Positions 6,159 through 23,656 of a stretch of 29,948 nt of DNA are shown piece after piece (position 1 is the first letter of the stretch; each line of letters begins with the position of its first letter). A program made the position numbers and the translations under genes. The notes beneath the pieces were generated by a model, which saw only the letters and a list, made by a program, of their open reading frames with translations, had not been told where the DNA came from and did no database searches. Source of the DNA: a virus; IMG/VR virus record IMGVR_UViG_3300044742_000035, positions 1-29,948 of that record; one strand, given 5' to 3'.

Positions 6159-6160
6159 GG

Positions 6161-11132: not shown

Positions 11133-11143
11133 GGCGCGCGATC

Positions 11144-11263
11144 CTACGCCTGTTTCTGGTCTTCGGCCATAACCGGCTCGGGTGGGAAAGCATCGTTCAG
11201 TCGTTCGCGCATCGTGTCGTCGGCGTCCTGTTGCTCGGCTAACTCTTGGGCACTAGCAGGCAT
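11144..11263 (-). CDS. 39-aa protein, first gene of late operon
   Basis: The frame from the ATG at 11263 (MPASAQELAEQQDADD) to the TGA at 11144 encodes a hydrophilic, acidic 39-aa protein. It is preceded by GAGAGGG 7 bases upstream, a reasonable ribosome site, and followed by only 11 bases before the small terminase. It marks the 5' end of the leftward operon; upstream is the non-coding control region. The longer frame in the same register (to 11671) crosses hairpin-rich sequence and is not believed. Confidence 0.6.
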   Translation of the reverse strand: MPASAQELAEQQDADDTMRERLNDAFPPEPVMAEDQKQA

Positions 11264-11530
11264 TGGATTTACCCTCTCTCCGTAGGTGGTGCTGCTTTGT
11301 TTTTTTGATCTTGTTCTTGACCCAATTCCCCGAATGGTGGGCGAGGTCCAGCCATCCCAGAGTGAACTGGGTGGCCTTCCCCGAACGGAGCCGCTCGGTC
11401 CGACAGTCATTCGACCCCGGGCACTATCTTCGCCACCCGGTGCGGCTGTCTCAGGTCTGACCCACAGTAGCCGCGTATCCCCCATTCCTGTCGTTGAGGC
11501 CCCGACGAATAGGCGGCTGGCTTGACAGAT

Positions 11531-11613
11531 GGGAACCGGGGGATGTAGTGTCGCGAGGTCTGCCGTGGCTCTACTGTTCGCCGGTTCCCGAAAAACCAGC
11601 AACACAACAGTAG
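11531..11613. repeat. Two interlocked inverted repeats
   Basis: GGGAACCGG (11531-11539) pairs with CCGGTTCCC (11581-11589), and CTACTGTT (11571-11578) pairs with AACAGTAG (11606-11613). The arms alternate, so both stems can form together only as a pseudoknot-like or sequential structure. The 3' arms are followed by A runs (GAAAAA, CTGAAAAGG), which read as T runs on the minus strand. Confidence 0.7.
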
Positions 11614-11689
11614 TCCCCGGTTTCTGAAAAGGCAACGCCCCCTCCCAATCGGGAGGCGGGCCGAGCCCCAAATCCCCAAATAGCCAGCC

Positions 11690-11715
11690 CCTATCGGCTC
11701 AGTTCGCCCGATAGG
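11690..11715. repeat. Perfect 8-base inverted repeat before early promoter
   Basis: CCTATCGG (11690-11697) and CCGATAGG (11708-11715) are separated by 10 bases and lie 24 bases upstream of the TTGACA of the early promoter. The position suits an activator or repressor site. No T run follows, so it is not an obvious terminator. Confidence 0.6.
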
Positions 11716-11739
11716 CACAACCACGTCCTTAAATATCGC

Positions 11740-11775
11740 TTGACAGCTTGCGTCTGTTGCATCAGACTCCGTCTG
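11740..11775 (+). promoter_or_regulatory. Early promoter/operator element A
   Basis: TTGACA (11740-11745) is followed by exactly 17 bases and then the dyad CAGAC-TCC-GTCTG (11763-11775). The -10 hexamer at the standard spacing would be CAGACT, which keeps the important A (-11) and T (-7) of sigma-70 sites but is otherwise weak. The dyad overlaps it, as an operator would. An additional GTCTG half-site lies at 11752-11756. The same arrangement recurs at 13135 and 18487. It would drive the rightward early operon starting at 11812. Confidence 0.75.
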
Positions 11776-11811
11776 TCGATACCGATAAACCACTTTAAAG
11801 GACGCTACGAG

Positions 11812-12252
11812 ATGGATGACCAACGCGAACACTACGATGCACGTACCGAGGCCAACGAAGCCGAGGTGGCGCGCGACGCGATCCCCACCACAGCCGAGGC
11901 CCTTGCCAACGTATTCGAGCAGAACGCCAAGCATCTGCAGGAAGAACTCAACGCCCTGAGCGATGGTGGCCGCAACGTCTACATCATCACCGTGGCCGAT
12001 CTGCCGGTTAAGGTCATCATCACCGAGACGCAGGGCTCAAGCGTGTCCGTGCAGTCGCTGCGTGACTGCACCCGCTACTGCTGCCTCGCAACCGCCACCA
12101 AGCGCGCCAGAACGATCCGTAACGGCAAGGGTGATCGCGGTGAGGTCCATACCCTGCACCACGCCTACGTGACCGCCATCGCTGACCTGTTCAAGCAGGC
12201 GCAGCTACTGCGCGATGGTCTGAGCGTACTCAAGCTAACCGAAGCACTGTAA
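11812..12252 (+). CDS. First early protein, unknown
   Basis: This 146-aa protein starts at the ATG at 11812 (MDDQREHYDARTEANEA), 36 bases after operator element A; the leader includes CTTTAAAGGA. A longer frame begins upstream of the promoter and is rejected. The N-terminal third is acidic and helical, a beta-like stretch follows (GRNVYIITVADLPVKVIITE), and the C-terminal half is basic and helical with RDCTRYCCLATATKRARTIR. It is the first product expected after infection from this promoter, so a host-takeover or regulatory role is plausible but unproven. No family recognised. Confidence 0.7.
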   Translation: MDDQREHYDARTEANEAEVARDAIPTTAEALANVFEQNAKHLQEELNALSDGGRNVYIITVADLPVKVIITETQGSSVSVQSLRDCTRYCCLATATKRARTIRNGKGDRGEVHTLHHAYVTAIADLFKQAQLLRDGLSVLKLTEAL

Positions 12253-12275
12253 GCCCACTACCAAGGAGTGTGAGC

Positions 12276-12512
12276 ATGCATCTCGACTACACGAACCAAG
12301 GTCGCCGCCCTTCTGCGGCCCAGATCGTCGCCGCGTGGAAGAAGGCTGGCAAGCCCATTCTGTTCTCCGTGAGCTACGGTGAAACCTTTGCCGAGTTCGA
12401 GTACACGCCCGGGCACAACGATGCGTGGTGGAGCGGCTGGCATGCCTCCGGCAACGGTTGCCGTGGCGTTGATCGTGACGCCGTCACCAAAGCACTCCCG
12501 AGGAGCTTCTGA
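12276..12512 (+). CDS. Small early protein, unknown
   Basis: This 78-aa protein (MHLDYTNQGRRPSAAQ) starts at the ATG at 12276, 7 bases after AAGGAG; a GTG two codons upstream is too close to that ribosome site. It has a helical segment (AAQIVAAWKKAGKP), then a beta/aromatic part rich in Trp, Phe and Gly (NDAWWSGWHASGNGCRG). Soluble, no membrane segment. It lies 2 bases upstream of the next gene in the first early cluster. No function assigned. Confidence 0.7.
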   Translation: MHLDYTNQGRRPSAAQIVAAWKKAGKPILFSVSYGETFAEFEYTPGHNDAWWSGWHASGNGCRGVDRDAVTKALPRSF

Positions 12513-12514
12513 CC

Positions 12515-12814
12515 ATGAACCTGCAAGACGTTCTGAACATCGAGGGCGAGGCCCAAAGCGAGAGCGAGTACGCCCTGTCCATGCAGCGCGCCATCAACAG
12601 CGGCTCGGCGTGGAGCTTCCAAGGCTCCATGGGCCGCGCCATGATGAACGCCATCGAGGCCGGTGTCTGCATGCTGGGCGAGTCCCGGGCGCGTGACTTC
12701 TGGGGCAACACCATCCCGGCCCGCACCGACGTGCAGGAAGGCACCAAGGGCTCGCGCAAGTACGTCGAGGACCGCATGGGTGACGCATGGGTCGAGATGC
12801 TGGAGGACGCATGA
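12515..12814 (+). CDS. Early protein, unknown
   Basis: This 99-aa protein (MNLQDVLNIEGEAQSESEY) is preceded by GAGGAGCTTCTGACC, which provides a ribosome site. It is predominantly helical with MGRAMMNAIEAGVCML in the middle and a conserved-looking RDYWGN-like element (RARDFWGNTIPARTDV) followed by basic GTKGSRKYVEDR. It ends in ATGA overlap with the next short gene. Such proteins recur in early regions of proteobacterial phages, but I cannot name a function. Confidence 0.7.
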   Translation: MNLQDVLNIEGEAQSESEYALSMQRAINSGSAWSFQGSMGRAMMNAIEAGVCMLGESRARDFWGNTIPARTDVQEGTKGSRKYVEDRMGDAWVEMLEDA

Positions 12815-12945
12815 GCTACATCCGCTACGAGTCCACCACGATCACCTACCACTCGATGCAGTGGCAGATGCTCACGGCTGCAGGCTGGATCACACACACC
12901 GTCGAACTGGACGGCACCGCAACGATGATCAGGAGGGTTTGGTAA
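12811..12945 (+). CDS. 44-aa early protein
   Basis: A short frame from the ATG at 12811 (MSYIRYESTTITYHSM) to the TAA at 12945 encodes 44 aa. It shares ATGA with the upstream stop and TAATG with the downstream start, so it fills the gap exactly and has the same coupling as its neighbours. The sequence is beta-like with aromatic residues and ends TATMIRRVW. Function unknown. Confidence 0.65.
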   Translation: MSYIRYESTTITYHSMQWQMLTAAGWITHTVELDGTATMIRRVW

Positions 12946-13148
12946 TGGCAGACGATGCACCTGTCCCAAGCGCGCACGAGCTACGCATGGCCGCACTCGT
13001 TTACCGCGACCGCAAGGATCACACGACCGCCGACATCTGCGTGAACATCGCCAAGAAGCTAGAGAACTACGGCTACTTCGCCAGCGGCAGACAGCACGTG
13101 TACGCAGCCAACCTTGTGCGCAAATCGAAATCGCTTGACAAGCTTTAA
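12945..13148 (+). CDS. 67-aa early protein carrying element B in its tail
   Basis: This gene starts at the ATG at 12945 (MADDAPVPSAHELRMAAL), with AGGAGGG 8 bases upstream, and ends at 13148 inside a CTTTAAAG octamer. The protein is basic and helical (YRDRKDHTTADICVNIAKKL). Its last codons contain the TTGACA of promoter element B, so the coding end and the next promoter share sequence. A longer frame from 12663 overlaps the two upstream genes and is rejected. Confidence 0.7.
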   Translation: MADDAPVPSAHELRMAALVYRDRKDHTTADICVNIAKKLENYGYFASGRQHVYAANLVRKSKSLDKL

Positions 13149-13170
13149 AGCATCAATCAGACTCCGTCTG
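13135..13170 (+). promoter_or_regulatory. Early promoter/operator element B
   Basis: TTGACA (13135-13140), 17 bases, then CAGAC-TCC-GTCTG (13158-13170), with TCGC before the -35 and GTC after the dyad exactly as in element A. The spacer contains CTTTAAAG. It lies 25 bases before the start of the gene at 13195 and would reinforce transcription of the second early cluster. Confidence 0.75.
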
Positions 13171-13194
13171 TCACTACCAACTAAGGAAAACCGA

Positions 13195-13431
13195 ATGACC
13201 GTCGCACTCAGATCAGCCAAGTTCAGCGCCTCGAAGGGGGTGCTGCAGGATGCCCTCAACACGCAGCCGGATCGCGTCGAGTTCCACGATCCGTCGCTCT
13301 TCAACGAGCGCTGGTTCACGGGGCACGACATCAAGGTGGGCGAGCGCTTCCCGGTCGTGATGGACCCCGCCACACGCAGACGTTTCTCAACCGTCGTCCG
13401 CAAGTCGGATGGCACTTTCAAAGTCACATAA
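13195..13431 (+). CDS. Early protein, unknown
   Basis: This 78-aa protein (MTVALRSAKFSASKGV) starts 24 bases after operator element B and follows CTAAGGAAAACC, a variant of the leader used by several genes here. It contains VEFHDPSLFNERWFTGHDIK followed by VGERFPVVMDPATRRRF, a beta-rich pattern that I associate with small phage proteins of unknown role; the C-terminus is basic. Soluble. It is the first gene of the second early cluster. Confidence 0.7.
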   Translation: MTVALRSAKFSASKGVLQDALNTQPDRVEFHDPSLFNERWFTGHDIKVGERFPVVMDPATRRRFSTVVRKSDGTFKVT

Positions 13432-13441
13432 GGAGAATGAC

Positions 13442-13768
13442 ATGGGCAGCAGAGCAGTTTTGACATTCGACAAGGACCTCAATCCCAACAGCGTGGGCGT
13501 GTACCTGCACTGGCACGGTAGCCTGAAGTCAGTGCTTGGCATCCTAGCGGACGTACGCAGCTACGCCCGCAACCCGGAGGCCGATCCCTCGTACGCCTTC
13601 GCGCGCCTCGTGGAGGCCTGCTGCAGGGCCGCTGGCGAGCGTCAGGAAGGGAGCGTGGGAGTCGGCACCCTCTCCGATCTGGACACCGACAACGGCGACC
13701 ACGGCACCTACATCATCGGCGGCATTTGGGAAATCGTTGAGCGCCGCTTCGCCCGGGAGAGCGCATGA
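13442..13768 (+). CDS. Conserved phage protein with YLHWHG motif
   Basis: This 108-aa protein starts at the ATG at 13442 after CATAAGGAGAATGA. It has the order GSRAVLTF...VGVYLHWHG...SVGVGTLSDLDTDNGDHGTYIIGGIWEIVER. I recognise this as a widespread phage and mobile-element family with conserved GVYLHWNG, a DxDNxDxGTY block and a final WEIV, but its function is unknown to me. The conserved Asp/Asn residues could bind a metal. It overlaps the next gene by ATGA. Confidence 0.72.
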   Translation: MGSRAVLTFDKDLNPNSVGVYLHWHGSLKSVLGILADVRSYARNPEADPSYAFARLVEACCRAAGERQEGSVGVGTLSDLDTDNGDHGTYIIGGIWEIVERRFARESA

Positions 13769-13941
13769 GCCAAGTCTGCCAGCGTTGCTACAAGATCGTG
13801 ATGCGTGCGTGCCAGTCAGAGACTGAATGGTCCGAGTGTCCGCACCTCGAACGGCGCAATCAGGACCTTGCGTACACGCAGTGCGCTGCTGCTGAACTGC
13901 AACTGCGTAGCCTGCTCAACAAACAATCGGAGGTCAAATGA
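13765..13941 (+). CDS. 58-aa Cys-rich early protein
   Basis: The frame starts at the ATG at 13765 (MSQVCQRCYKIVMRAC) and ends in ATGA overlap with the SprT-like gene. Residues C5-x-x-C8, C16 and a CPH near residue 26 could form a small zinc site; the rest is helical (LERRNQDLAYTQCAAAELQL). Position next to a zinc protease is suggestive but not evidence of a shared function. Confidence 0.65.
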   Translation: MSQVCQRCYKIVMRACQSETEWSECPHLERRNQDLAYTQCAAAELQLRSLLNKQSEVK

Positions 13942-14531
13942 AACTGACTCGTGAACTGTGGCTGGAGCGCGGCGTGCGCAAGCTCACGTCCACCTTTAAA
14001 GCAGCAGGCCACACGCTGCCGCCAGTGAAGGTGTCGTGTTCGTGGCCCGGTGGCCGCAGCGGCAGCAAGAAGGGTGTGATCGGCCAGTGCTGGACGCGCG
14101 CCTCATCGAACGCTGGCATCAACGAGATTTTCATCTCACCACGCATCGATGACCCGGTGGCTGCGCTCGATGTGCTGTCGCACGAGTTGTGCCACGCGAT
14201 CGATGACTGCAAACACGGTCACCGCATCCAGTTCGCGCGCCTCGTGTACTCGATCGGTCACGTCGGCAAGCCGACCAACACGGTCGCTGGCCCGGTGCTG
14301 CGCAAGAAACTGGAGCATATGGCGGCGAAGCTTGGCCCGTACCCGCACGCTGCGGTTGACTTCACGATCGATGACAAGGGACCCAAGCCCTCGTACCTGA
14401 TCAAGTGCATGTGCGACAGCAAGGAATGCGGTGCGGTGTTCCGCATGACCACGTCGTGGATCGGTCGCGCTGCAGTCAACGACGGCCTGCGCTGCCCGGT
14501 GTGCGGTGGCGGCGCTACTGCTGGAGGATGA
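13938..14531 (+). CDS. SprT-like zinc metalloprotease
   Basis: This 197-aa protein has an HExxH-type active site HELCH at residues 82-86, followed by HGH at 93-95 for the third zinc ligand. A C-terminal zinc ribbon follows (CMCDSKEC ... CPVCGG). That order is typical of the SprT/Spartan family, whose eukaryotic members digest proteins crosslinked to DNA; bacterial and phage members are poorly understood. The N-terminus is basic and helical. It starts at the ATG at 13938 with GGAGGTCAA just upstream. Removing host proteins from phage DNA during replication or recombination is a reasonable inference. Confidence 0.82.
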   Translation: MKLTRELWLERGVRKLTSTFKAAGHTLPPVKVSCSWPGGRSGSKKGVIGQCWTRASSNAGINEIFISPRIDDPVAALDVLSHELCHAIDDCKHGHRIQFARLVYSIGHVGKPTNTVAGPVLRKKLEHMAAKLGPYPHAAVDFTIDDKGPKPSYLIKCMCDSKECGAVFRMTTSWIGRAAVNDGLRCPVCGGGATAGG

Positions 14532-14532
14532 C

Positions 14533-14673
14533 ATGTACACGATGATCCCGGCGACCTACAAAGGATGGCTGATCCTCGCGCCCAACCGCGAGGAGTTGGC
14601 CCACGTTGTATTCGAGTACGAAGCCAACAAACTGCTTGCCCACCTGAACCGCAACCATAAGGAAAACACATGA
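14533..14673 (+). CDS. 46-aa early protein
   Basis: A short frame from the ATG at 14533 (MYTMIPATYKGWLILA) to the TGA at 14673 has GGAGGATGAC directly upstream and overlaps the next start by ATGA. The product looks like a small alpha/beta protein (GWLILAPNREELAHVVFEYE) with a basic Asn-rich tail. No function assigned. Confidence 0.65.
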   Translation: MYTMIPATYKGWLILAPNREELAHVVFEYEANKLLAHLNRNHKENT

Positions 14674-14831
14674 AACGCTACATCGCAATCGCACTACTCG
14701 CTGTCAGCACGGCAGCGCTCGCCGCCAACCTTGTGTCGCAGGTCAAGCTGGCTGATGGTCGCCTGCTGTGCGTCTACAGCGACGGCAGCACCATCATCAC
14801 CAGCTTCAACAACTGCCCGAGCTTCAAATGA
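14670..14831 (+). CDS. Small exported protein with signal peptide
   Basis: The 53-aa product starts MKRYIAIALLAVSTAALAA, a typical Sec signal peptide with a predicted cut after ALA, leaving about 34 residues with two Cys that could form a disulfide in the periplasm. The start follows CATAAGGAAAACAC. It is translationally coupled on both sides. Mature protein: beta-like (LVSQVKLADGRLLCVYSDG). The role is unknown; early exported proteins of this size are candidates for superinfection exclusion. Confidence 0.68.
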   Translation: MKRYIAIALLAVSTAALAANLVSQVKLADGRLLCVYSDGSTIITSFNNCPSFK

Positions 14832-14977
14832 TCGACGTCAAGCGCAATTGGGCGGGCGTGACTATCACACGCACCAAGCTCGCAGAAAGACGCAAGTCAC
14901 TGCACCTATCAGAGCCCGAAGCATGGGACCTCTTCAAGCAACTATCCAAACTGTTCAGAAAGGAAAAACCGAAATGA
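14828..14977 (+). CDS. 49-aa basic protein
   Basis: The frame opens at the ATG at 14828 (MIDVKRNWAGVTITRT) sharing ATGA with the exported protein and closes in ATGA with the membrane protein. Lys and Arg make up about a quarter of residues and the C-terminal half is helical (EAWDLFKQLSKLFRKEK), so nucleic-acid or membrane-surface binding is possible. Function unknown. Confidence 0.62.
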   Translation: MIDVKRNWAGVTITRTKLAERRKSLHLSEPEAWDLFKQLSKLFRKEKPK

Positions 14978-15249
14978 CCATTTTTGTATTGGGCTTGATG
15001 CTGGTCGCGTTCGTCGTTGGCTTCACCACGGCATCAGTGTTCTTTCACTACATGATCAATCAACAACGGAAGGAGTTTGCCGGTGCCAACAAAAGCGAGG
15101 GGAGTCTATGGACCACTATCCCAAAGGCGGGAGAAGACGCGGAAGCGGCTGACCGAGATGCCTCTGCCACGATACGAATCGAAACCAATCCCCGGAGGAA
15201 CTGCGCAGACTGGAGCGAATCTTCATGCGTGACATCGGCCAACTGGTGA
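14974..15249 (+). CDS. Single-pass membrane protein with overlapping gene in its tail
   Basis: The 91-aa frame starts MTIFVLGLMLVAFVVGF, a strong N-terminal membrane helix, followed by FFHYMINQQRKEF and a polar tail. The first 35 residues look real. The C-terminal half overlaps a second gene in another frame (15083-15257) with its own good ribosome site, and its composition there (NPRRNCADWSESSCVTSANW) looks less natural. The protein may truly end at 15249, or the tail may be affected by the same frame problem as the overlapping gene. Inner-membrane location, N-terminus out or in undecided. Confidence 0.55.
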   Translation: MTIFVLGLMLVAFVVGFTTASVFFHYMINQQRKEFAGANKSEGSLWTTIPKAGEDAEAADRDASATIRIETNPRRNCADWSESSCVTSANW

Positions 15250-15257
15250 AGACATGA
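15083..15257 (+). CDS. Overlapping small basic protein with apparent frameshift
   Basis: A GTG at 15083 lies 7 bases after AAGGAG and opens a frame reading PTKARGVYGPLSQRREKTRK then RLTEMPLPRYESKPIP. In frame it stops at 15232 (49 aa). If one C is dropped from the CCCC run at 15190-15193, the reading continues naturally as EELRRLERIFMRDIGQLVKT and stops at 15257, in ATGA overlap with the next gene, exactly the junction used throughout this operon. I therefore propose a gene of about 57 aa broken by a one-base insertion, a sequencing error or ribosomal slippage. Function unknown. Confidence 0.5.
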
Positions 15258-15556
15258 GCAAATTACGTCCCGAAGCTTGTAAGTCAACAGACCCGGCAAT
15301 GAATGACGCCGATGTCCTGTACTGGATCAAACGCAGCGTTGAGGAGGAACGCGGTCTGATTCACGGGCGATTGCATAGCGGCGGCATGCACTGCGCGATG
15401 GGCTCGTTCTGGGCTCGTTACCAAGCCACTGTTCACACGAGCCTAGTGGATGAAGTGGCGGCGATAAACGACATGAATCCGAAGGAACGCACGACAACAC
15501 GTCGCAGGCGCGTACTCGAATGGATTGAGTGGAAACTTAAAAGGGTGAAGCCATGA
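15254..15556 (+). CDS. Early protein, unknown
   Basis: This 100-aa protein (MSKLRPEACKSTDPAMND) is soluble and basic at the C-terminus (RRRRVLEWIEWKLKRVK). The middle contains MHCAMGSFWARY with conserved-looking Cys/His/Trp residues and a helical EVAAINDMNPKE. The start at 15254 overlaps the stop of the putative frameshifted gene as ATGA; a second ATG at 15300 is possible but lacks that junction. It is coupled to the next gene by ATGA. Function unknown. Confidence 0.68.
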   Translation: MSKLRPEACKSTDPAMNDADVLYWIKRSVEEERGLIHGRLHSGGMHCAMGSFWARYQATVHTSLVDEVAAINDMNPKERTTTRRRRVLEWIEWKLKRVKP

Positions 15557-15861
15557 AGGGCAGCGGATACACAATCGCACCCGTCGTGGAGAACGGAGCG
15601 CACAAGTGGCAGCTTGTCCGTCGGCGCGCGATCGGTCCATCGATGCTGCCGGTCATCATCATCGGCACCTTTCCCTCGGTCCTAGACGCTGAGGTGGCGA
15701 TCACGCATCTGAGGTCGCCATCACATAATTACCCGGATGAGGTGGAGGGACCAACGAATGAGGCCGGGTGGTACGAGGCCGCGACGCCGGAAGAGCTTCG
15801 CGCCTACAACGTGCGACTGCAGCAACAGATAAAGGACCTAGGCCATGAGCCTGTCATGTGA
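15553..15861 (+). CDS. Early protein, unknown
   Basis: This 102-aa protein (MKGSGYTIAPVVENGAHKW) begins with a beta hairpin-like stretch (HKWQLVRRRAIGPSM), continues with VIIIGTFPSVLDAEVAITHL and ends with a helical stretch (TPEELRAYNVRLQQQIKDLG). It overlaps the CxxCxxCC gene by 17 bases. No catalytic motif is visible. It looks like a small alpha/beta protein; no family recognised. Confidence 0.68.
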   Translation: MKGSGYTIAPVVENGAHKWQLVRRRAIGPSMLPVIIIGTFPSVLDAEVAITHLRSPSHNYPDEVEGPTNEAGWYEAATPEELRAYNVRLQQQIKDLGHEPVM

Positions 15862-16246
15862 CGGCTGCACCGAGTGCTGCTACTACCTCGGCATCGCTGC
15901 GCTTGGCAAGCCCAACTGCGTCAACTGCAAGCATGTCGAGGAACGCGTGGGCTGCGGCATCTACGAGGAGCGGCCCGAGGACTGCCGCACCTTCGAGTGC
16001 ATGTGGCTGCAGACGCAGACCGATCGCGTGCGTGCATGGCCGAAGCTGATGAGGCCCGACAAGTGCGGCGTGATGTTCGTCGCCACCACGAGCGACAATA
16101 CGATCGCGGCCCACACCCGTGAGCCCGATGCATTAGAGAACCCAACGATAAAGAAAAGGATGAACCAATGGCTACGAAACGGACTGCAGGTAGTGCAAGT
16201 GAACGGACAGCAGCGACGCCTGCTGCGAATGTTTCCGAGAACCTAG
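15845..16246 (+). CDS. CxxCxxCC metal-binding protein (YkgJ-like)
   Basis: The 133-aa product starts MSLSCDGCTECC, giving the exact CxxCxxCC signature at residues 5-12, followed by CVNC, GCGIYEERPEDCRTFEC and a basic C-terminus. This order matches the YkgJ/UPF0153 family of putative zinc- or iron-binding proteins, in which a Cys-rich N-terminus and the YExRPxxCR motif are conserved; the biochemical role is unresolved. Phage copies are found among small early genes. Its last 79 bases overlap the next gene in another frame. Confidence 0.78.
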   Translation: MSLSCDGCTECCYYLGIAALGKPNCVNCKHVEERVGCGIYEERPEDCRTFECMWLQTQTDRVRAWPKLMRPDKCGVMFVATTSDNTIAAHTREPDALENPTIKKRMNQWLRNGLQVVQVNGQQRRLLRMFPRT

Positions 16247-16656
16247 AGCAGGAGGTGCTGCGAGCGCTGCTGGTGCAAAACGATGCGCTGCTGAAGTCGA
16301 ATGAGATGCTGCGCGCGATGACCACGCTACTCAGCAAGCTGCTGGCGCAAACTAGGATCACCGTCATGCCGAGTGAAACGCCACCCGAAACGGTGGCGAT
16401 GGTGGCGAAGGCTAACGGCCCGATCCCAGCAGTCGAACCGGACCCGCAGAACCCGTTGCCACCCCTGCTCGATGAGCCCAAGGGCCCGACGCTGGCCGAT
16501 CTGAAGGTGGCGCTGCAAGCCTGCATCGCGGCGCACGATCAAGACGTAGCGCGCCGCTGCATCGCACCGTACGCCACCTACTCGATGGTGCCAGTGGATA
16601 AGCTGGCAGAGGTCATCGCCAAGGTCGAGGCCGCAACGAGGTCGGTGGTGCCATAG
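16168..16656 (+). CDS. Coiled-coil early protein, last of its cluster
   Basis: This 162-aa protein starts at the ATG at 16168, preceded by AAAAGGATGAACC, and overlaps the CxxCxxCC gene by 79 bases. An Ala/Thr-rich N-terminus leads into a long helical segment (LEQEVLRALLVQNDALLKSN) likely to oligomerise, a Pro-rich linker (PIPAVEPDPQNPLPPLLDEP) and a C-terminal helical domain (LADLKVALQACIAAHDQD). That last part resembles a Lys/Ala helical pair seen in ssDNA or recombination helpers, but I cannot name it. It is followed by a convergent nuclease operon. Confidence 0.68.
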   Translation: MATKRTAGSASERTAATPAANVSENLEQEVLRALLVQNDALLKSNEMLRAMTTLLSKLLAQTRITVMPSETPPETVAMVAKANGPIPAVEPDPQNPLPPLLDEPKGPTLADLKVALQACIAAHDQDVARRCIAPYATYSMVPVDKLAEVIAKVEAATRSVVP

Positions 16657-16667
16657 GACGCGTCAGG

Positions 16668-16740
16668 ATTGATCAGGAGCCGCGCAAGCTGGATGCGGCT
16701 CCGACACACAGACAACACCGGAAGGCTGCTCCTGATCAAT
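16668..16740. terminator. Convergent-operon inverted repeat
   Basis: ATTGATCAGGAGC (16668-16680) and GCTCCTGATCAAT (16728-16740) form a perfect 13-base inverted repeat around a 47-base loop. Within it GGAGCCGC (16676-16683) and GCGGCTCC (16695-16702) form a perfect 8-base hairpin that uses the same GGAGC, so the two stems exclude each other. It lies between the stops of the rightward coiled-coil gene and the leftward 142-aa gene, whose last codons it overlaps. No T run follows on either strand; a bidirectional, possibly factor-aided terminator is the simplest reading. Confidence 0.6.
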
Positions 16741-17164
16741 TCTGGTGGCTGGGCGCTGGATCGCTGGTGATCTTCGACGCCACCCAGTTACGCATGCGGG
16801 TCCAGCGCCGCTCGGGTGTTTCGTCGTCACGGAATATCCAATGCTCATCGTTCTCGAACATGATTTCTGCGGCCAGCGCCTCGGCGATATTGAACTTCGC
16901 AGCGATTGCCTCGCGGTCGTACGCATCCACGCCAGCCATGTCGATGCCACGCGCCTGACCAAGAACCCCGAGCGTGCAAAACTGACCATCATCGGTCATA
17001 AGCTCGTTAGTGATGAGCGTCTTCAGAGGCATGGCATCGAGTGCGGCAAGCAGTTCGCGCAGCATGGCCTGACCTCGCGCCCCACGCATGGCCGACGCGA
17101 CTGCACCGCGCCAGCGGATCAGTGTCCACCCATCGCAATCATCGGAGTAACCGCTTCTGCTCAT
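16736..17164 (-). CDS. Nuclease-operon protein, unknown
   Basis: The 142-aa protein starts at the ATG at 17164 (MSRSGYSDDCDGWTLIRW), sharing ATGA with the VRR-NUC stop. It is helical and acidic, with RWRGAVASAMRGARGQAMLR, a central QFCTLGVLGQARGIDM and a Trp/Arg-rich C-terminal part (DETPERRWTRMRNWVASK). I recall this as a widespread phage protein of unknown function, often among early small genes. Here it is the last of four leftward genes with DNA-processing products, so a role near DNA is likely but inferred. The longer frame to 17731 is a shadow. Confidence 0.72.
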   Translation of the reverse strand: MSRSGYSDDCDGWTLIRWRGAVASAMRGARGQAMLRELLAALDAMPLKTLITNELMTDDGQFCTLGVLGQARGIDMAGVDAYDREAIAAKFNIAEALAAEIMFENDEHWIFRDDETPERRWTRMRNWVASKITSDPAPSHQN

Positions 17165-17544
17165 AACATCCTCTCTTGGGACATGTAGCTGGTGATCAAG
17201 TCGATGGCCTCGTTGGCACCCCAGCACGTTTGCGTGCGCCAGCCCATCGAGGCCAGCCCGTCGAGCCACATCTCCTGCAACTCGCTCGGGCCCCTGCCGC
17301 CGACCCGCTTCATCTCCATCGCAAGCCCGATGTAGGTTCCACGTGGAACGGGCAGGATGAGGTCGGGTACGCCTGCCTTCATGCCGAGGTCGAGGTTCAG
17401 GCCGCGCTCGAACTTCGTGCGCTTGGCGGCGTTGGGCACCGCGAACAGCCAGCGCAACTCCGGCCAGCGGGACTCGTGCCATAGGCACCACCGGATCACC
17501 ACGGCCTGCTCGGCGCTCTCCAGCGGCGTCAGTAGTCGGGTCAT
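17161..17544 (-). CDS. VRR-NUC domain nuclease
   Basis: This 127-aa protein is a stand-alone VRR-NUC (PD-(D/E)XK superfamily) nuclease. The catalytic core is visible as GVPD at residues 58-61 and EMK with E77 and K79, followed by S87 and Q90; AVPNAAKR at 35-42 is also typical. Stand-alone phage versions are thought to cut branched DNA such as Holliday junctions or replication forks. The start is the ATG at 17544, sharing ATGA with the upstream stop; a longer frame to 17637 overlaps that gene. It pairs naturally with the ERF recombinase encoded at 20390. Confidence 0.85.
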   Translation of the reverse strand: MTRLLTPLESAEQAVVIRWCLWHESRWPELRWLFAVPNAAKRTKFERGLNLDLGMKAGVPDLILPVPRGTYIGLAMEMKRVGGRGPSELQEMWLDGLASMGWRTQTCWGANEAIDLITSYMSQERML

Positions 17545-18035
17545 CTCGATGACAACCAGTCCAGCAACTCCGGCATCGGTCGCAGCAAGTTCCTCGGCAC
17601 GAAGAAAGCCGGTCGGCCCCCCGTCGGATCGCGCCAAAATTCAGAGAGCTTGCCGTCTCCGGCGAATGTCCAACCGCACAGATCGAACTCCGGCGCGTGA
17701 GTCCAAACCAAAACGTAGGGTGTCTCGTCATCGTCGTCAGGATGCAGAATCAAATTGTGGTTCCGTTGCGTTGTCGAGCGAACATCAACCATTCCGCCAA
17801 CGTCGCGCGCCTGAACATCGTTCACTGTTCCACACCAAAACAGGTTCGTGTATCGAGCAACGGCAAGTTCGGCGCAGCATCCGTTGACGTCGATTTCAAG
17901 AGCGCCAGCGCCGTTCGGTGCGCCGTACTTCGGCGCTCGGCCCTTGAACATTCCAGATAGCCGACGCATTACTCCGACATGGCTCGCCATCGACAGTTGC
18001 CCGTACGTGAGGCTCACGACCACGGGAGCGCTCAC
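17541..18035 (-). CDS. Possible second PD-(D/E)XK-like phage protein
   Basis: The 164-aa protein has a pattern I associate with a phage family related to restriction-endonuclease folds: an N-terminal helix, CCAELAVARY with E56, then ARDVGGMVDVR with D78 and D84-x-R86, then LILHPDDDDETPYVLV and a C-terminal FDLCGWTFAGDGK followed by PAFFVPRNLLRP. The usual E-x-K is D-x-R here, so catalysis is uncertain. It lies directly upstream of the VRR-NUC gene with ATGA coupling. An alternative is a non-enzymatic DNA-binding protein. Fold assignment is by eye only. Confidence 0.55.
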   Translation of the reverse strand: MSAPVVVSLTYGQLSMASHVGVMRRLSGMFKGRAPKYGAPNGAGALEIDVNGCCAELAVARYTNLFWCGTVNDVQARDVGGMVDVRSTTQRNHNLILHPDDDDETPYVLVWTHAPEFDLCGWTFAGDGKLSEFWRDPTGGRPAFFVPRNLLRPMPELLDWLSSR

Positions 18036-18436
18036 GCCCTGTGATCCATCTTCGAGTTACCGGCGACATGGTGCCACGTGCCAGCCACCGGCAGGCCGTC
18101 GCAATCCTTCAGGATGTTCTTGATCTTCGCAAGCTCGCGCCGCGCCACCTCGCTGTCGCCACCGTCCCACACACCCTCCAGCGCCTTGCTGACCTGACTC
18201 GTGAAGCGCCTTAGCTCGCGACCACGGCACGCCGCCACGATGTCAGCAGGCACCGGCATGCGGCTGTTGAACTTCGGCCAGTCGGTCAGTACGCTCAAGA
18301 TGTCCGGCATGGTGAAGTGCTTTAAAGCATCCAGCCATACCACCCCGCCCTTGGGTCCCGGCACCTTGCCGACCAACCCAGCTTGCGACAGTTCGAGTAG
18401 TCGCATCATCAGCATGTCTGTCTGCTCGCGGTGCAT
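18032..18436 (-). CDS. First protein of nuclease operon, possible replication accessory
   Basis: This 134-aa protein starts at the ATG at 18436 (MHREQTDMLMMRLLELSQA) after AGAGGGGGAC. It is helical, with LKHFTMPDILSVLTDWPKFN, MPVPADIVAACRGR and a basic Arg/Lys helix, ending in GTWHHVAGNSKMDHRA. The MPxPADI(V) element is common in phage replisome-organiser or loader-like small proteins, so a replication accessory role is a guess. The gene is first in the leftward operon and is preceded by a divergent operator element (18457-18493). Confidence 0.55.
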   Translation of the reverse strand: MHREQTDMLMMRLLELSQAGLVGKVPGPKGGVVWLDALKHFTMPDILSVLTDWPKFNSRMPVPADIVAACRGRELRRFTSQVSKALEGVWDGGDSEVARRELAKIKNILKDCDGLPVAGTWHHVAGNSKMDHRA

Positions 18437-18456
18437 CCTGTCCCCCTCTTGGATTT

Positions 18457-18493
18457 AAGATGCAATCTGACCACAAAAATATTCGCTTGACAA
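18457..18493 (-). promoter_or_regulatory. Leftward promoter/operator for nuclease operon
   Basis: On the minus strand TTGTCA (18493 to 18488) is followed after 18 bases by CAGAT-TGC-ATCTT (18469 to 18457), a symmetric variant of the CAGAC-TSC-GTCTG dyad. The -35 overlaps that of element C on the other strand, so both promoters share one TTGACAA core. Start of the nuclease operon is 21 bases downstream at 18436. It could be bound by the same regulator as elements A to D. Confidence 0.55.
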
Positions 18494-18522
18494 CCGTCCC
18501 AAACATCATCAGACTGCGTCTG
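18487..18522 (+). promoter_or_regulatory. Early promoter/operator element C
   Basis: TTGACA (18487-18492), 17 bases, then CAGAC-TGC-GTCTG (18510-18522), preceded by TTCGC and followed by GTC (the centre is TGC rather than TCC). It lies 27 bases before the gene at 18549 and drives the third rightward cluster. Confidence 0.75.
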
Positions 18523-18548
18523 TCAATTCACTCACCATAAGGAAAACG

Positions 18549-18764
18549 ATGACAGCAGGCCGCGTTGACTTTGACGATCTACCGCCAGAGACGCAGAAAA
18601 AGATTCGAGCGGGTGCGCCCAAGTTCAAGCGCCCGCGCGAGACGACGTTCTCGAAGAACGATGTGCGCAGCTACGCGATGAAGGCGATGGGGGTACTGGC
18701 ACCACTGACCCCGAGCGAGCGCGCACGCGTACTGAAGCTTGCACTGGAGATAAACAAGGTATGA
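18549..18764 (+). CDS. Small basic early protein
   Basis: This 71-aa protein starts MTAGRVDFDDLPPETQKKIR directly after CATAAGGAAAACG, in the third early cluster. It has a basic Lys/Arg/Pro middle (APKFKRPRETTFSKND) and a helical C-terminus (TPSERARVLKLALEINKV). The ERARVLxxAL element recalls small phage DNA-associated proteins of unknown function. Coupled to the next gene by ATGA. Nucleic-acid binding is plausible from charge. Confidence 0.7.
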   Translation: MTAGRVDFDDLPPETQKKIRAGAPKFKRPRETTFSKNDVRSYAMKAMGVLAPLTPSERARVLKLALEINKV

Positions 18765-18985
18765 GCATACGAGTCCAGATTTACCCGTTCGAGGACAGGA
18801 CCATCACGCTCGCCGACTTCCTCGAACGCGACTCGCGGTCGAGTGGCGAGGGGCAGCTTGAGTCGATGCGCAAGCAGATCGATTCTCTAGTCGGCATCGT
18901 CGAGGTCATCCTCACGCACTCATCGCCCGTGCTGGTTGAGCATGTGGGCGATGCGCTCGGCAAGAAGCTTGAGGTGGAGATATGA
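18761..18985 (+). CDS. 74-aa early protein, coiled-coil
   Basis: The 74-aa product (MSIRVQIYPFEDRTITLADF) is acidic with a helical heptad-like stretch (GQLESMRKQIDSLVGIVEVI) that may self-associate. It shares ATGA at both ends. No Cys, no membrane helix. Function unknown. Confidence 0.68.
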   Translation: MSIRVQIYPFEDRTITLADFLERDSRSSGEGQLESMRKQIDSLVGIVEVILTHSSPVLVEHVGDALGKKLEVEI

Positions 18986-19482
18986 GCCTGCACGTTGCCG
19001 ATTGCCGCCATCTAAGCGCCGCGCTCGCATTCAAGGGCCGCAACGGTATGGGCTCCTGCGTGCTGCGGTCGGTCGCTCTGGCGCTTGATCTGCCCCGCGC
19101 AGTGATCACCTTCGGCACCATCCGCGCAGCGAACGAGGCCGAGATAGCGACCATCCCAAATGCATCGCTGGTGCCGTTCATACATTGCTGGCTGGAGGTT
19201 GACGACGTCGTGATCGCACCCACGACGCTGGAGCGTACCGCTGGCGTGCTGGTGGCAATGGATCGCAAGTCCTACTACGAAACCAACGGTGTGTACTCCG
19301 TACGTCCAGTGCCACGCGCTGCGTTCGATGCAATCGCGCGCCGCTTCCGACTGAGCGCAGCATTCCGGCATGGCTCGGGCCGCGCTGGCAAGGGCAACGT
19401 AGCCGAGGCGCTGCTCGCTGCCGCCAACGTCCGCTACGTGCTGGGCGAACACCGCGCACTACTACCGAAGGAGAAGGCATGA
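18982..19482 (+). CDS. Possible transglutaminase/papain-like fold protein
   Basis: The 166-aa protein contains GSCVLRSVALAL (C26) and FIHCWLEVDDVVIAPT (H68, W70, E72). In transglutaminase-like and related Cys-peptidase folds the order Cys-helix, then H-x-W-x-E and D-P-T on successive strands is typical; here the acidic residue of the DPT step is Ala (APT), so activity may be lost or use another residue. Length suits a single such domain. It is coupled to the outer-membrane-like gene that follows. Substrate unknown; peptide or protein modification would be the family expectation. Confidence 0.45.
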   Translation: MSLHVADCRHLSAALAFKGRNGMGSCVLRSVALALDLPRAVITFGTIRAANEAEIATIPNASLVPFIHCWLEVDDVVIAPTTLERTAGVLVAMDRKSYYETNGVYSVRPVPRAAFDAIARRFRLSAAFRHGSGRAGKGNVAEALLAAANVRYVLGEHRALLPKEKA

Positions 19483-19859
19483 GCATCTGCCACGCGCTGA
19501 CGGTGGTGCTGCACCTAGTGTCGGCGCATTCGCCGTCCGACTTCGACAACGCCAACTACGGTGCGGGCCTTGAGTGCCGGGTCGATGGTTGGGCGGTCGA
19601 AGCGGGCGGGTATCGCAACAGCTACGGCAGAGGGTCGGCGTACCTAGCAGGCGGGTACCGGTACGCGTTTGATGGCGGGTGGGCTGTCGGCGTTGCAGTT
19701 GGCGCTGCCACCAACTATCCAGAGGGCGTGGTCCCCGTGGGCGGGATCACGCTCCACACGCCGGAGTGGGAAAGATGGGCTGCGCGCCTGATGGTCGGCC
19801 CGAAGGTTCACGAACACGGCGCGCACGTCGCGCACCTGATGCTAACGAGGAAACTATGA
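19479..19859 (+). CDS. Outer-membrane beta-barrel-like phage protein
   Basis: The 126-aa product starts with a short hydrophobic leader (MSICHALTVVLHLVSAHS), then alternates aromatic/Gly strands: NYGAGLECRVDGWAVEAG, YRNSYGRGSAYLAGGYRY, WAVGVAVGAATNY, and ends in a strand LMLTRKL. The YRNSxGRxSxYxGG motif is one I associate with small phage- and host-encoded outer-membrane barrels. Location in the outer membrane is inferred; it could block receptors or alter lipid A during infection. The leader is shorter than usual and its cleavage site is not clear. Confidence 0.6.
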   Translation: MSICHALTVVLHLVSAHSPSDFDNANYGAGLECRVDGWAVEAGGYRNSYGRGSAYLAGGYRYAFDGGWAVGVAVGAATNYPEGVVPVGGITLHTPEWERWAARLMVGPKVHEHGAHVAHLMLTRKL

Positions 19860-20104
19860 GCTACTACACGTACTGCGAAAGATGCGGCAAGCAGATCGAG
19901 CTACCGGCGTTCGAGGGTGACGGTGTGTTCAGCCGTGACTACCCGCACAAGTGCGACATACCCGTCACGAACCCCACGATTAAGCGTGGCTGCTTCGTGT
20001 TCGGGCCCACGAGTTGGGAAGACCAGAAGAAACTCGCCAAGGCGAACTGGAAGGCGATTGACCGCATTGCTGGGCAACTTCAGAAACGTAGGGAGGGACG
20101 ATGA
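19856..20104 (+). CDS. Small zinc-finger-like protein
   Basis: The 82-aa protein (MSYYTYCERCGKQIELP) has CERC at residues 7-10 and HKC with a later GC, enough for a single zinc site. The second half is helical and basic (EDQKKLAKANWKAIDRIAGQ then LQKRREGR). It starts in ATGA overlap with the barrel-like gene and ends in ATGA overlap with the next. DNA or protein binding inferred from the finger and charge. Confidence 0.68.
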   Translation: MSYYTYCERCGKQIELPAFEGDGVFSRDYPHKCDIPVTNPTIKRGCFVFGPTSWEDQKKLAKANWKAIDRIAGQLQKRREGR

Positions 20105-20397
20105 CCGAGCCTACTTGCACGATGGGCGTTGGAACCGGAGACGGGGAGCTATTCGTGCATGGAACCTACGAAAGCATCAAAGCAGCGCAGGCCATCGTCA
20201 ACGACCGCGCTCGACTGCAGCACAACGAGGGCATCTACAAGGAACAGATCAGGGAACTGCGCCTGCTGCTGGGCCAGATGGTCCACAGGGTGCCGGGGAC
20301 ACGCGCCTACAACGAAACACGGGCGCTGGCCGCAGAGGTCGTTCTGACCGCACACATGAGTGAATACAAACCGGGAGAGGTAGCCAACAATGACTGA
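20101..20397 (+). CDS. Early protein upstream of ERF
   Basis: The 98-aa product (MTEPTCTMGVGTGDGEL) has a beta-like N-terminus and a long helical middle (YESIKAAQAIVNDRARLQHN and EQIRELRLLLGQMV). It overlaps the ERF gene by 8 bases, so the two are probably translated together, and a recombination-helper role is possible. No family recognised. Confidence 0.66.
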   Translation: MTEPTCTMGVGTGDGELFVHGTYESIKAAQAIVNDRARLQHNEGIYKEQIRELRLLLGQMVHRVPGTRAYNETRALAAEVVLTAHMSEYKPGEVANND

Positions 20398-21283
20398 GCA
20401 ACGCATCGAAGACACGCCCTACGCACCCCCAGCACCAGCGGTCAAGATGGACACCGAGCCACGCAACATGGCTCCATGGCCTGTCGTGCCGAAGGTCTAC
20501 CGCGCCATCAACAAGGTGCAGGCGGCGCTCGCCAAGGTGGGCATCGCCAAGGACCGCAAGAACGTCCAGCAGAGCTACAGCTTCAGGGGCGTGGACGACA
20601 TGTACAACGTGCTGTGCCCGCTGCTCTCTGAGCATGGCCTGTGCATCCTGCCGCGCATGTTGAGTCGCGAACTGGTCGAGCGCGTGAGTGCCAAGAACAC
20701 CGCGCTGTTCTACGTCACGGTCGATGCCGAGTTCGACTTCGTGTGCGCCGAGGACGGCAGCAAGCACACCGTCAAGACGTACGGTGAGGCCATGGACATC
20801 GCTGACAAGGCAACCAACAAGGCGATGAGTGCGGCCTACAAGTACGCCTGCATGCAGGCCTTCTCGATCCCGACACAGGGTGACAACGACGCCGACGCCA
20901 CGACGCACGATGTACTGGCCGCTCCGCGCCAGAGCCTTCCAGACGACGAACTGGAAGCGGCCCAGATGACACGGCTCGCACGGGTCGCATCAACCCTGAT
21001 CGATCTGGTGACGGAGGAGGAGGACCCCACGGTCGACAACGAGTGGAAGATTTGGGAAATCATCGAGCCCATTACGGACAACGGGGAGAAGATGTATCTC
21101 GGTCGTTTGCTGGGCCCGAAGGAAAGCCGCGTGCGCAGCCGGATGAAAGAGGTTGCCGACATCAAGCGTGGCGTAGTCAAGCCTGTAGCCAACACGACGC
21201 GCGTCCAGACCGGGCCCGGGCTCAAGAAAACCCACGTCCGTGGCGACGAGCCCGAGCATCCAGCCAGAGGTAACGACGCATGA
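20390..21283 (+). CDS. erf: ERF-family single-strand annealing protein
   Basis: The 297-aa protein belongs to the ERF superfamily of phage recombinases (P22 Erf, Pfam ERF), which coat single-stranded DNA and pair complementary strands. Diagnostic segments are YSFRGVDDMYNVL at 63-75, the following HGLCILP, YGEAMDIADKATNKAMSAAY (131-150) and FSIPT near 159. The C-terminal third is acidic then basic and less conserved, as usual. No 5'-3' exonuclease gene is seen beside it; the leftward VRR-NUC enzyme may serve the same pathway. The start at 20390 overlaps the upstream gene by 8 bases. Confidence 0.9.
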   Translation: MTEQRIEDTPYAPPAPAVKMDTEPRNMAPWPVVPKVYRAINKVQAALAKVGIAKDRKNVQQSYSFRGVDDMYNVLCPLLSEHGLCILPRMLSRELVERVSAKNTALFYVTVDAEFDFVCAEDGSKHTVKTYGEAMDIADKATNKAMSAAYKYACMQAFSIPTQGDNDADATTHDVLAAPRQSLPDDELEAAQMTRLARVASTLIDLVTEEEDPTVDNEWKIWEIIEPITDNGEKMYLGRLLGPKESRVRSRMKEVADIKRGVVKPVANTTRVQTGPGLKKTHVRGDEPEHPARGNDA

Positions 21284-21627
21284 CCGCACAAGTGATCACC
21301 GACGCGCAGCTATTCGAGACGCTGCACTGGCTTGAGGACAACGGTAGGAAGGCGGCACAGGCGCGGGCGCATCGCGTCTATCTGGAGGAGTATCTGGCCC
21401 ACCAGCGCGCCAAGATCGCGCAGGAGTGCATGGATGAGGGTGAGTCCGCAGCGAAGGCCGACATCAAGGCGAAGGCGTCCCCTGCGTACCTGACAACCCT
21501 GACGGGCCTGAAGGCAGCGATCGAGGAGGATGAGTTCTTCCGCTGGCACCGCACGCACGCCGATGCAATCGTGAGTGCATGGCAGACACTGAGTGCGAAC
21601 CGTCGCTCTCTTGAGCGTGGCACATGA
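21280..21627 (+). CDS. ERF-associated small protein
   Basis: This 115-aa protein (MTAQVITDAQLFETLHWLE) is almost entirely helical and charged (RVYLEEYLAHQRAKIAQECM, AYLTTLTGLKAAIEEDEFF). Small helical proteins encoded directly after ERF genes are common in phages and are often annotated as hypothetical or as recombination partners. It starts in ATGA overlap with ERF. It ends 15 bases after the -35 of element D, so the next promoter begins inside its coding end. Confidence 0.7.
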   Translation: MTAQVITDAQLFETLHWLEDNGRKAAQARAHRVYLEEYLAHQRAKIAQECMDEGESAAKADIKAKASPAYLTTLTGLKAAIEEDEFFRWHRTHADAIVSAWQTLSANRRSLERGT

Positions 21628-21646
21628 ACCTGTTAGCCTCCGTCTG
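21611..21646 (+). promoter_or_regulatory. Degenerate promoter/operator element D
   Basis: TTGAGC (21611-21616) is followed by exactly 17 bases and then TAGCC-TCC-GTCTG (21634-21646). The right half of the dyad is identical to elements A and B and the left half differs at two positions. It lies 20 bases before the Cro/YdaS-like gene, whose product could bind here with lower affinity to control its own level. Confidence 0.6.
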
Positions 21647-21665
21647 ATACATCAAGGAGCAAACA

Positions 21666-21950
21666 ATGTTCAATCGAGAAACCGTGAAGCTGCCGCGCTA
21701 CAAATCCAAGCGGGGGCACGTCCTCGTCCATGGGCTTGAGGGCGTAAACAAACTCGGACTGTCCACGCGCTCCATCGCGCGCCAGCTTAAGGTCACGCCG
21801 CAGACGCTGCTCATCTGGAAGGACAAGGCCGAGAAGGATCGCAACTTCCTGCTGCCCGGGGAGCAGGTTCCTGCGCTGTCCAAGGCGCTTGGCATCGCGC
21901 CATACTACTTCCGGCCTGACCTGTGGCCGAACGAAACGTGGAGGTTCTGA
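21666..21950 (+). CDS. Cro/YdaS-like DNA-binding regulator
   Basis: The 94-aa protein (start at 21666 after AAGGAGCAAACA) has a helix-turn-helix at about residues 32-52 (LSTRSIARQLKVTPQTLLIW), then PGEQVPALSKALGI and the C-terminal APYYFRPDLWPNE. The closing RPDxWP element after an ALSxALGI helix is typical of YdaS/Cro-type phage repressors. Basic N-terminus. It is the only clear sequence-specific regulator in the window and sits under element D, which makes it the best candidate ligand for the CAGAC-N3-GTCTG operators. Whether it represses or activates is unknown. Confidence 0.75.
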   Translation: MFNRETVKLPRYKSKRGHVLVHGLEGVNKLGLSTRSIARQLKVTPQTLLIWKDKAEKDRNFLLPGEQVPALSKALGIAPYYFRPDLWPNETWRF

Positions 21951-22129
21951 TGGATCAACAGACGCTACTGCATCAGCACAGCAACCTGAAGTTCGTGCAG
22001 GAGAACACGCGCCGCACTCCCGATCTGCCAACGATCGAGATGTACAAGCCTGAAGGTCACAACGGAGACATGCTGGTGCTGCTCGCGTGCGTGTTCGCGC
22101 TGGGCGTGGTGCTGGGAATGTTTTTGTAG
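21950..22129 (+). CDS. 59-aa tail-anchored membrane protein
   Basis: This protein starts at the ATG at 21950 (MDQQTLLHQHSNLKFVQEN), overlapping the regulator stop as TGATG, and ends with a hydrophobic helix (MLVLLACVFALGVVLGMFL). The first 38 residues are polar. One membrane pass with a cytoplasmic N-terminus is likely. Function unknown; co-expression with the regulator is implied by overlap. Confidence 0.68.
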   Translation: MDQQTLLHQHSNLKFVQENTRRTPDLPTIEMYKPEGHNGDMLVLLACVFALGVVLGMFL

Positions 22130-22170
22130 CACCGGGCCGTAATCATGCGGCTCGTCATAAGGAGAATCAA

Positions 22171-22821
22171 ATGCCACGATGGCTGCTTGCTTTATTCGCA
22201 GCGTTTCCGTTGCTCGCGCACGGGGGTGTGGTCACCATCACCTTCGAGAATCCTGAAACCTACATGCTCGGACAGGCGACGAACTTCGTCACTGGTGGCC
22301 TGCGTTTCTCTCCACCGTGCGCGAATGCACACGCAGGCCACTCTGACATTGGACCGTCAGGGGCTTGGCTGTCATCGGACAAGGACAACAGCAACTGCGA
22401 AATCCTGAACAGTAGCTATCTGGGCGTGGGCTTCGAGGACTTCTACGTCGATCGCTTCGGCCAGTCGTTCACGCTGCTTGGCCTAGCTGGCCTCGGCTAC
22501 GACGGGCACACCGACTTCCAAGTGATGTCTTCGAGGGGCGGCATCTTCAATGGGAGCGTCAGAGATGATGCCCCTGTTGGCTACGATTTCTTCACGCTCA
22601 CTGGCCCGCTGTGGACCGACATCACATGGTTCACGCTGCGCAACACCGACGATCACACCTTCCACATGCACATGGGCTGGGATGACATCCGCTATTCATA
22701 CCGTGTCGATGAGCCCCCGACATGGTTGCTGTTGGCATTGCCGATTGTGGGCTTTGTGATTGCTCGACAGGAACGAAAACACTCCAGAGGTAAAGCTAAC
22801 CAGAGGGGTCAATCATGCTAA
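22171..22821 (+). CDS. Exported protein with PEP-CTERM-like sorting tail
   Basis: The 216-aa product starts at the ATG at 22171 after CATAAGGAGAATCAA, with a Sec signal peptide (MPRWLLALFAAFPLLAHGG). The body is beta-rich with four Cys and closes with MGWDDIRYSYRV. The C-terminus reads DEPPTWLLLALPIVGFVIARQERKH (181-204 in two parts: EPPTW then a 14-residue membrane segment, then RQERKH). This order, E-P-x-[ST]-W, hydrophobic helix, basic cluster, is that of PEP-CTERM proteins processed by exosortase in EPS-forming proteobacteria; the preceding DDIxY strand is also typical. A 12-residue extra tail is unusual. The product is expected at the host envelope or surface. Confidence 0.75.
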   Translation: MPRWLLALFAAFPLLAHGGVVTITFENPETYMLGQATNFVTGGLRFSPPCANAHAGHSDIGPSGAWLSSDKDNSNCEILNSSYLGVGFEDFYVDRFGQSFTLLGLAGLGYDGHTDFQVMSSRGGIFNGSVRDDAPVGYDFFTLTGPLWTDITWFTLRNTDDHTFHMHMGWDDIRYSYRVDEPPTWLLLALPIVGFVIARQERKHSRGKANQRGQSC

Positions 22822-23614: not shown

Positions 23615-23619
23615 GATTT

Positions 23620-23656
23620 GATCTGCCGCGCATGACAGGCGGCAGATCGCGATCTT
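23620..23656 (+). terminator. Rho-independent-like terminator
   Basis: GATCTGCCGC (23620-23629) and GCGGCAGATC (23639-23648) form a perfect 10-base stem with a 9-base loop, followed by GCGATCTTTTCC. The T run is short and offset by six bases, so termination may be partial. It separates the three-gene exported block from the Pro-rich gene. Confidence 0.7.

Follow-up and report, generated by a model that had tools for sequence, protein, structure and literature searches.

A repeated phage promoter whose -10 region has probably become an operator in one lineage of metagenomic viruses

The 29,948-base stretch analysed here, referred to as the window, is the IMG/VR virus record IMGVR_UViG_3300044742_000035 (61% G+C), and belongs to a bacterial virus known from metagenomes alone. 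It contains a repeated element, TTGACA-N17-CAGACTSCGTCTG, in which a -35-like hexamer is followed by the perfect dyad CAGAC-N3-GTCTG. A search of the window for TTGACA-N15..19-CAGAC-N3-GTCTG returned the three copies named in the original prediction, starting at 11740, 13135 and 18487, all of them on the plus strand and with a 17-base spacer, whereas 100 dinucleotide shuffles of the window returned none. With an expectation of about 3e-5 copies for spacers of 16-18, a chance origin of the element can be rejected. The full form common to the three sites is TCGCTTGACA-N17-CAGACTSCGTCTGTC; TCGC directly precedes TTGACA at each of them, as had been described, and the right arm GTCTG is followed by TC, which corrects the GTC given at first.

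Each copy stands ahead of the first gene of a rightward cluster, again in agreement with what had been proposed. Site 1 (11740-11775, plus strand) comprises the -35 hexamer TTGACA (11740-11745), the spacer, the putative -10 box CAGACT (11763-11768) and the dyad CAGACTCCGTCTG (11763-11775), whose end lies 36 nucleotides (nt) from the ATG of cluster 1 (11812-13148, plus strand). Site 2 (13135-13170, plus strand), with TTGACA at 13135-13140 and the same dyad CAGACTCCGTCTG at 13158-13170, is separated by 24 nt from cluster 2 (13195-16656, plus strand), which includes an SprT-like gene (13938-14531). Site 3 (18487-18522, plus strand), with TTGACA at 18487-18492 and the dyad CAGACTGCGTCTG at 18510-18522, precedes by 26 nt cluster 3 (18549-21627, plus strand), where an Erf-type single-strand annealing protein is encoded (20390-21283). 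The first genes of the three clusters each have an AAGGA-type ribosome site, and all three -35 hexamers match TTGACA at 6/6 positions. The fourth, degenerate copy is also present: site 4 (21611-21646, plus strand), TTGAGC-N17-TAGCCT-CCGTCTG, retains the spacing and the right arm, has lost the left arm and matches the -35 at 4/6 positions; with 15/19 matches overall it is a weak site taken alone. It is positioned 19 nt ahead of a gene (21666-21950, plus strand) for a 94-amino-acid (aa) Cro/C1-type helix-turn-helix (HTH) protein. Loose dyads, with up to two mismatches allowed, number 14 in the window against 19 expected and so show no enrichment, the exact dyad being limited there to promoters.

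The early region of the window has no DNA-level match among 50,697 phage records. Judged by the capsid protein, the closest isolate is Stenotrophomonas phage BUCT555 (also L198 in our numbering), with 70% identity, and the capsid protein of Myxococcus phage Mx8 reaches 61%. Judged by the gene order of 40-kb relatives, the record appears to contain the whole early region and to lack about 10 kb of structural genes across its ends. The collection of bacterial and archaeal genomes yielded no terminase relative, searches for the host through a prophage or element in bacterial genomes gave no match, and a search of plasmids gave none.

The original prediction had staked itself on the conservation of the dyad in relatives, and scans of 2.9 million IMG/VR contigs recovered the element in four related ones: L004 and L013 (both with 80% terminase identity to the window), L027 (67%) and G007, also listed as L079 (71%). 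The remaining matches were unrelated contigs only. A wider distribution among unrelated phages was rejected, since the first-scan matches L005-L036, except L013 and L027, are unrelated to the window, many of them being a single match repeated across near-identical contigs; L098 and L200 were likewise discarded as relatives, both being unrelated phages. In the wider family, 46 further records were scanned for the looser pattern TTGAC-N18..20-AGAC-N3-GTCT, which occurs in G007 and G020 only, and the copy in G020 carries TAGACT as its -10. Site 1 has orthologous copies in L004 and L013, both with an 18-base spacer, and site 2 has one in L013. Between the window and L004, the -35, the dyad and their immediate edges at site 1 are identical, and the spacer has diverged in sequence and length. 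The spacing first described as exactly 17 bases, which does hold for the three exact copies and site 4, is thus 17 or 18, as for a sigma-70 RNA polymerase. L013 holds three copies of the element, the third of which, TTGACA-N18-CAGACTCCGTCTA, lies at about 470-580 on the minus strand, in the interval that separates the SprT-like gene from the gene beside it. The window lacks a counterpart of this third element there, and a putatively regulated promoter has been gained or lost between these close relatives.

Recognition by RNA polymerase, with CAGACT at the -10, was also part of the original prediction, and the comparison with relatives bears it out: the main RNA polymerase of the host very probably recognises CAGACT as a -10 box. 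This identification comes from the SprT-like gene, which is common to dozens of relatives. We examined 23 regions upstream of this gene in relatives of high G+C; 14 of them had sigma-70-like scores, with TTGACA, TTGCAC or a weaker -35, spacers of 17-19, and TACACT, TACAAT or TATACT at the position where L027 has CAGACT. The promoter of L108, TTGACAggCTTTAAAGacctaagcTACACT, is laid out like site 2 of the window, TTGACAaGCTTTAAAGCatcaatCAGACT, and that of L088 (the same record as G020), TATACTGCGTCTGTC, combines a canonical -10 with the right arm, without symmetry. Every copy of the element retains A-11 and T-7, the two bases that matter most in a -10 box. In BUCT555, several rightward genes or clusters are headed by TTGACA/TTGACG-N17-TATACT/TACAAT promoters with no dyad; these dyad-free promoters, together with those of the relatives, imply that a repeated sigma-70 promoter at the head of clusters is common to the group, the dyad having been added in one lineage.

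The dyad itself is probably an operator. With respect to TACACT or TATACT, CAGACT is altered at positions -12 and -10 and keeps A-11 and T-7; both changes complete the left arm CAGAC, which supports this reading. Dyads also stand alone, without a -10: AAGACGCCGTCTG lies 47 base pairs (bp) upstream of the promoter dyad in L004 and L013, AAGACTGCGTCTG lies 65 bp upstream on the opposite strand in L027, and CAGACGCCGTCTG precedes a gene with a TATGAT promoter in G007. By a rough, post hoc estimate, two stand-alone dyads within about 100 bp of promoters would arise by chance a few times in 10,000. The dimeric regulator that had been proposed to cover the dyad is putative, and is reasonably supported by these stand-alone copies and by the -12 and -10 departures that complete the symmetry.

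The best candidate reader of the dyad is the HTH protein encoded directly behind site 4, a possible assignment that we regard as more doubtful than probable. The protein is kept in about 30 related loci. Its AlphaFold2 model (predicted local distance difference test, pLDDT, of 85) matches lambda-repressor-like DNA-binding domains, including those of P22 c2, lambda CI, the 434 repressor, HigA and Xylella Cro, with Foldseek probabilities of 0.96-1.00, yet with E-values above 0.01. The recognition helix of the window, PQTLLIWK, resembles PQTLHIWK of G007, which is the only other long record with a CAGAC dyad, and relatives without the dyad have PQSLYKWE or PQSIYKWE, an association of helix and dyad that is suggestive.

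Taken together, we consider it fairly likely that the elements are sigma-70-type phage promoters of rightward clusters, in which the -10 evolved into a dyad and which a dimeric regulator, spanning about -12 to +1, can repress. The repetition, the spacing, the symmetry, the conservation, the homology of CAGACT to canonical -10 boxes and the stand-alone dyads are all directly visible in the DNA. According to this model, the host's main RNA polymerase, of the sigma-70 type, would read the promoters and start the rightward, probably early, clusters. A perfect 5-3-5 dyad at about -12 to +1 would have arisen from the hexamer CAGACT and the discriminator following it. Bound there, a dimeric regulator, which is most likely a repressor, would keep the polymerase from binding or from opening the strands and would shut off the clusters together. 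Acting on the degenerate site 4, the HTH protein would regulate its own gene as well. From the sequence features we infer the transcription start, the binding, the direction of the effect and the existence of a common regulon.

Several observations weigh against this model. CAGACT matches TATAAT at only 3/6 positions, and promoters with such a -10 may be weak or need an activator. Across the dyad-bearing sequence, about 92 kb in all, a rough estimate predicts 1 to 3 near-matches; the stand-alone dyads could therefore be partly due to chance, only their closeness to promoters being unusual. The association of the recognition helix with the dyad comes from two related genomes, in which function is inseparable from descent, and in G007 the homologue of the HTH gene has no dyad site in front of it.

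The elements could instead be unregulated host-type promoters, whose symmetry would reflect a lineage-specific -10 and discriminator, converged or copied, with no protein bound to the dyad. The promoter part alone does account for the -35, the spacing, A-11 and T-7; the promoter of L088 shows that the right arm can accompany a canonical -10, and BUCT555 and similar relatives have a repeated promoter family free of dyads. However, a perfect 5-3-5 dyad in each copy would be a coincidence of about 1 in 1000 for one sequence, the arms leave the -10 consensus in such a way that the dyad forms, and dyads are found without a -10 too, all of which makes this alternative unlikely. Another possibility is that the dyad is the site of an activator, or of a phage protein modifying the RNA polymerase, needed at delayed-early or middle promoters with a -10 as weak as CAGACT, which has 3/6 consensus positions; a scan of 10500-24800 gave no better sigma-70 promoter, and some stand-alone dyads do lie upstream of a -35. 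Nevertheless, a position over the -10 and the start is typical of a repressor and not of an activator, and the spacers of 17-18 differ from the 19-base spacers of MerR-type activator promoters. Moreover, if these were the sole rightward promoters, the start of the infection would need them to be active without phage proteins. We hold this second alternative to be quite improbable.

Finally, CAGAC-N3-GTCTG could fold, 19-36 nt ahead of the start codon, into a stem of 5 bp closed by a 3-base loop and act as a hairpin in RNA or single-stranded DNA, either as a leader stem-loop or as an N4-type hairpin promoter used by a virion RNA polymerase. The changes in the arms between copies are not compensated to keep base pairing, the outer pair being broken in L013 (576), in G007 and in the stand-alone copies, and the left arm being missing in L088. 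In addition, TTGACA at 17-18 bases would be left unaccounted for, and the largest open reading frame (705 aa) is far below the size of an N4-type polymerase, in a record that is incomplete. Given the lack of compensating changes, the hairpin was rejected as a very improbable explanation.

A second repeat occurs on the same promoters. Among the 8-base palindromes in the window, CTTTAAAG is by far the most over-represented, with 9 copies against 0.03 expected under a second-order Markov model; TTTAAA starts at 4754, 8057, 8623, 11794, 13144, 13995, 18321, 24503, 25991 and 29561. Site 1 carries a copy of CTTTAAAG in its leader (11793-11800, no strand), kept in L004 and L013, and site 2 carries one in its spacer (13143-13150, no strand), L108 and other relatives being arranged alike. 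As the spacer of site 2 thus holds GCTTTAAAGC, a genome-wide repeat found at the same place in relatives, the spacers first described as unrelated sequence are not all featureless. Many TTTAAA sites are intragenic, encoding Phe-Lys or, with the codon TTA, Ala-Leu-Lys.

The palindrome belongs to a genome-wide family that can be written NTTTAAAN', whose outer base is lineage-specific: in most relatives GTTTAAAC fills the role of CTTTAAAG, and GTTTAAAC or ATTTAAAT is found among the relatives G007-G068. Three long relatives have 17, 17 and 18 copies of the TTTAAA palindrome versus none of the reversed control AAATTT (17:0, 17:0 and 18:0). The outer pair is C..G in 17/17 copies in G043 and 16/17 in G048, G..C in 9/9 in G049 and 15/18 in G041, and frequently A..T in G046 and G050; BUCT555 and Mx8 have no TTTAAA palindrome. 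The promoters of the SprT gene have such palindromes in the spacer or just past the start, and one lies within 170 nt in 13/15 SprT regions with a listed promoter, compared with 33/799 background stretches. A literature search on the TTTAAA phage palindrome or on BUCT555 found no match.

Two candidates for the reader of this palindrome were considered. The HTH protein is disfavoured, its recognition helix being unchanged across the CTTTAAAG, GTTTAAAC and ATTTAAAT lineages. The other is a small conserved protein that combines an AT-hook-like stretch, KRGRPAKY, with a part resembling a ribbon-helix-helix; it is encoded in G043 (L179:10769-11155), with homologues in G008, G015, G020, G025, G046, G048, G049, G050, G052 and G068, and its gene often ends in or adjoins a TTTAAA site. 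It was rejected, as neither the window nor G007, both with the palindrome, has a homologue. Tentatively, and as a rather unlikely arrangement, two operator systems might be layered on the same promoters: the family-wide dispersed NTTTAAAN' palindrome (outer pair C/G, G/C or A/T), whose putative reader would set genome-wide silencing or DNA architecture, and the -10-embedded CAGAC-N3-GTCTG of one lineage, read by the Cro-like HTH protein.

Other features of these genomes lie apart from both repeats. The isolate BUCT555 and several relatives share a recurrent 12-mer, CCGACGAACGGT or CCGACGAGCGGT, just 5' of promoters (L198 1637, 1975, 3867 and 38137; L079 9532, 8587 and 6159; L027 1308; L181 7776; L186 10328; L189 4307); it is not in the window, and is possibly another promoter-associated element. 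On the minus strand of G007, at 9532, 8587 and 6159, there are three near-identical promoter regions, CCGACGAACGGTCGGCAC...TGTATGATTCG; with its CAGACT promoter beside them, this phage would have two promoter classes. In the window, a leftward cassette (16736-18436, minus strand) lies between clusters 2 and 3 and points away from site 3; it includes a VRR-NUC nuclease (17161-17637), and a scan of it gave no consensus promoter. Amid the structural genes, the product of 5374-6183 (minus strand) has by eye the look of a phosphoadenosine-phosphosulfate-reductase/ATP-pyrophosphatase-type protein, with the motif FSGGKDSLAL.

Phage early promoters overlapped by repressor operators are known from lambda OR/OL, from P22 and from the conserved inverted repeats of phiC31. 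As in these systems, sigma-70-type promoters of early clusters would carry short dyads, present at several places in the genome, to which a dimeric repressor would bind; the candidate repressor here has a model with a lambda-repressor-like fold. Contrary to them, the window has one dyad per promoter, placed exactly on -10 to +1 and displacing consensus -10 bases, and neither an integrase nor a CI-like repressor or lysogeny module was recognised in it. BUCT555 shares the TTGACA/TTGACG-N17 promoters heading rightward genes and clusters, but its -10 boxes are canonical, without the dyad and without the TTTAAA palindrome. Cluster O mycobacteriophages have a 17-bp palindrome, TGTTCGG-N3-CCGAACA, in more than 30 copies, mostly off promoters, for which the authors judged a transcriptional role unlikely (PMC4351075). 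Like the dyad of the window, it is a short dyad with a 3-base centre and a suspected site of a dimeric protein (PMC4351075), whereas the dyads of the window are few and lie on promoters. The TTTAAA sites are dispersed in genes and regulatory regions as the stoperators of Cluster A mycobacteriophages are (PMC4351075); the stoperators, however, are asymmetric and oriented with transcription (PMC4351075), and the TTTAAA sites are palindromic with a putative reader.

The original reading of the element as a promoter with a symmetric regulator site thus appears essentially correct, and the element is a phage promoter-operator set, a fairly ordinary, known kind of viral gene switch. The less ordinary part is the dispersed NTTTAAAN' palindrome, with its strong over-representation in many genomes and its lineage-specific outer base; if the layered arrangement were true, the lineages, differing in this base, would form a natural series in which to follow the co-evolution of operator and reader. 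For the promoters, the finding would provide a concrete putative regulon for a phage group without studied regulation, and an example of a phage lineage whose -10 box has itself been rewritten into an apparent operator, the relatives with a canonical -10 offering a ready before-and-after comparison.

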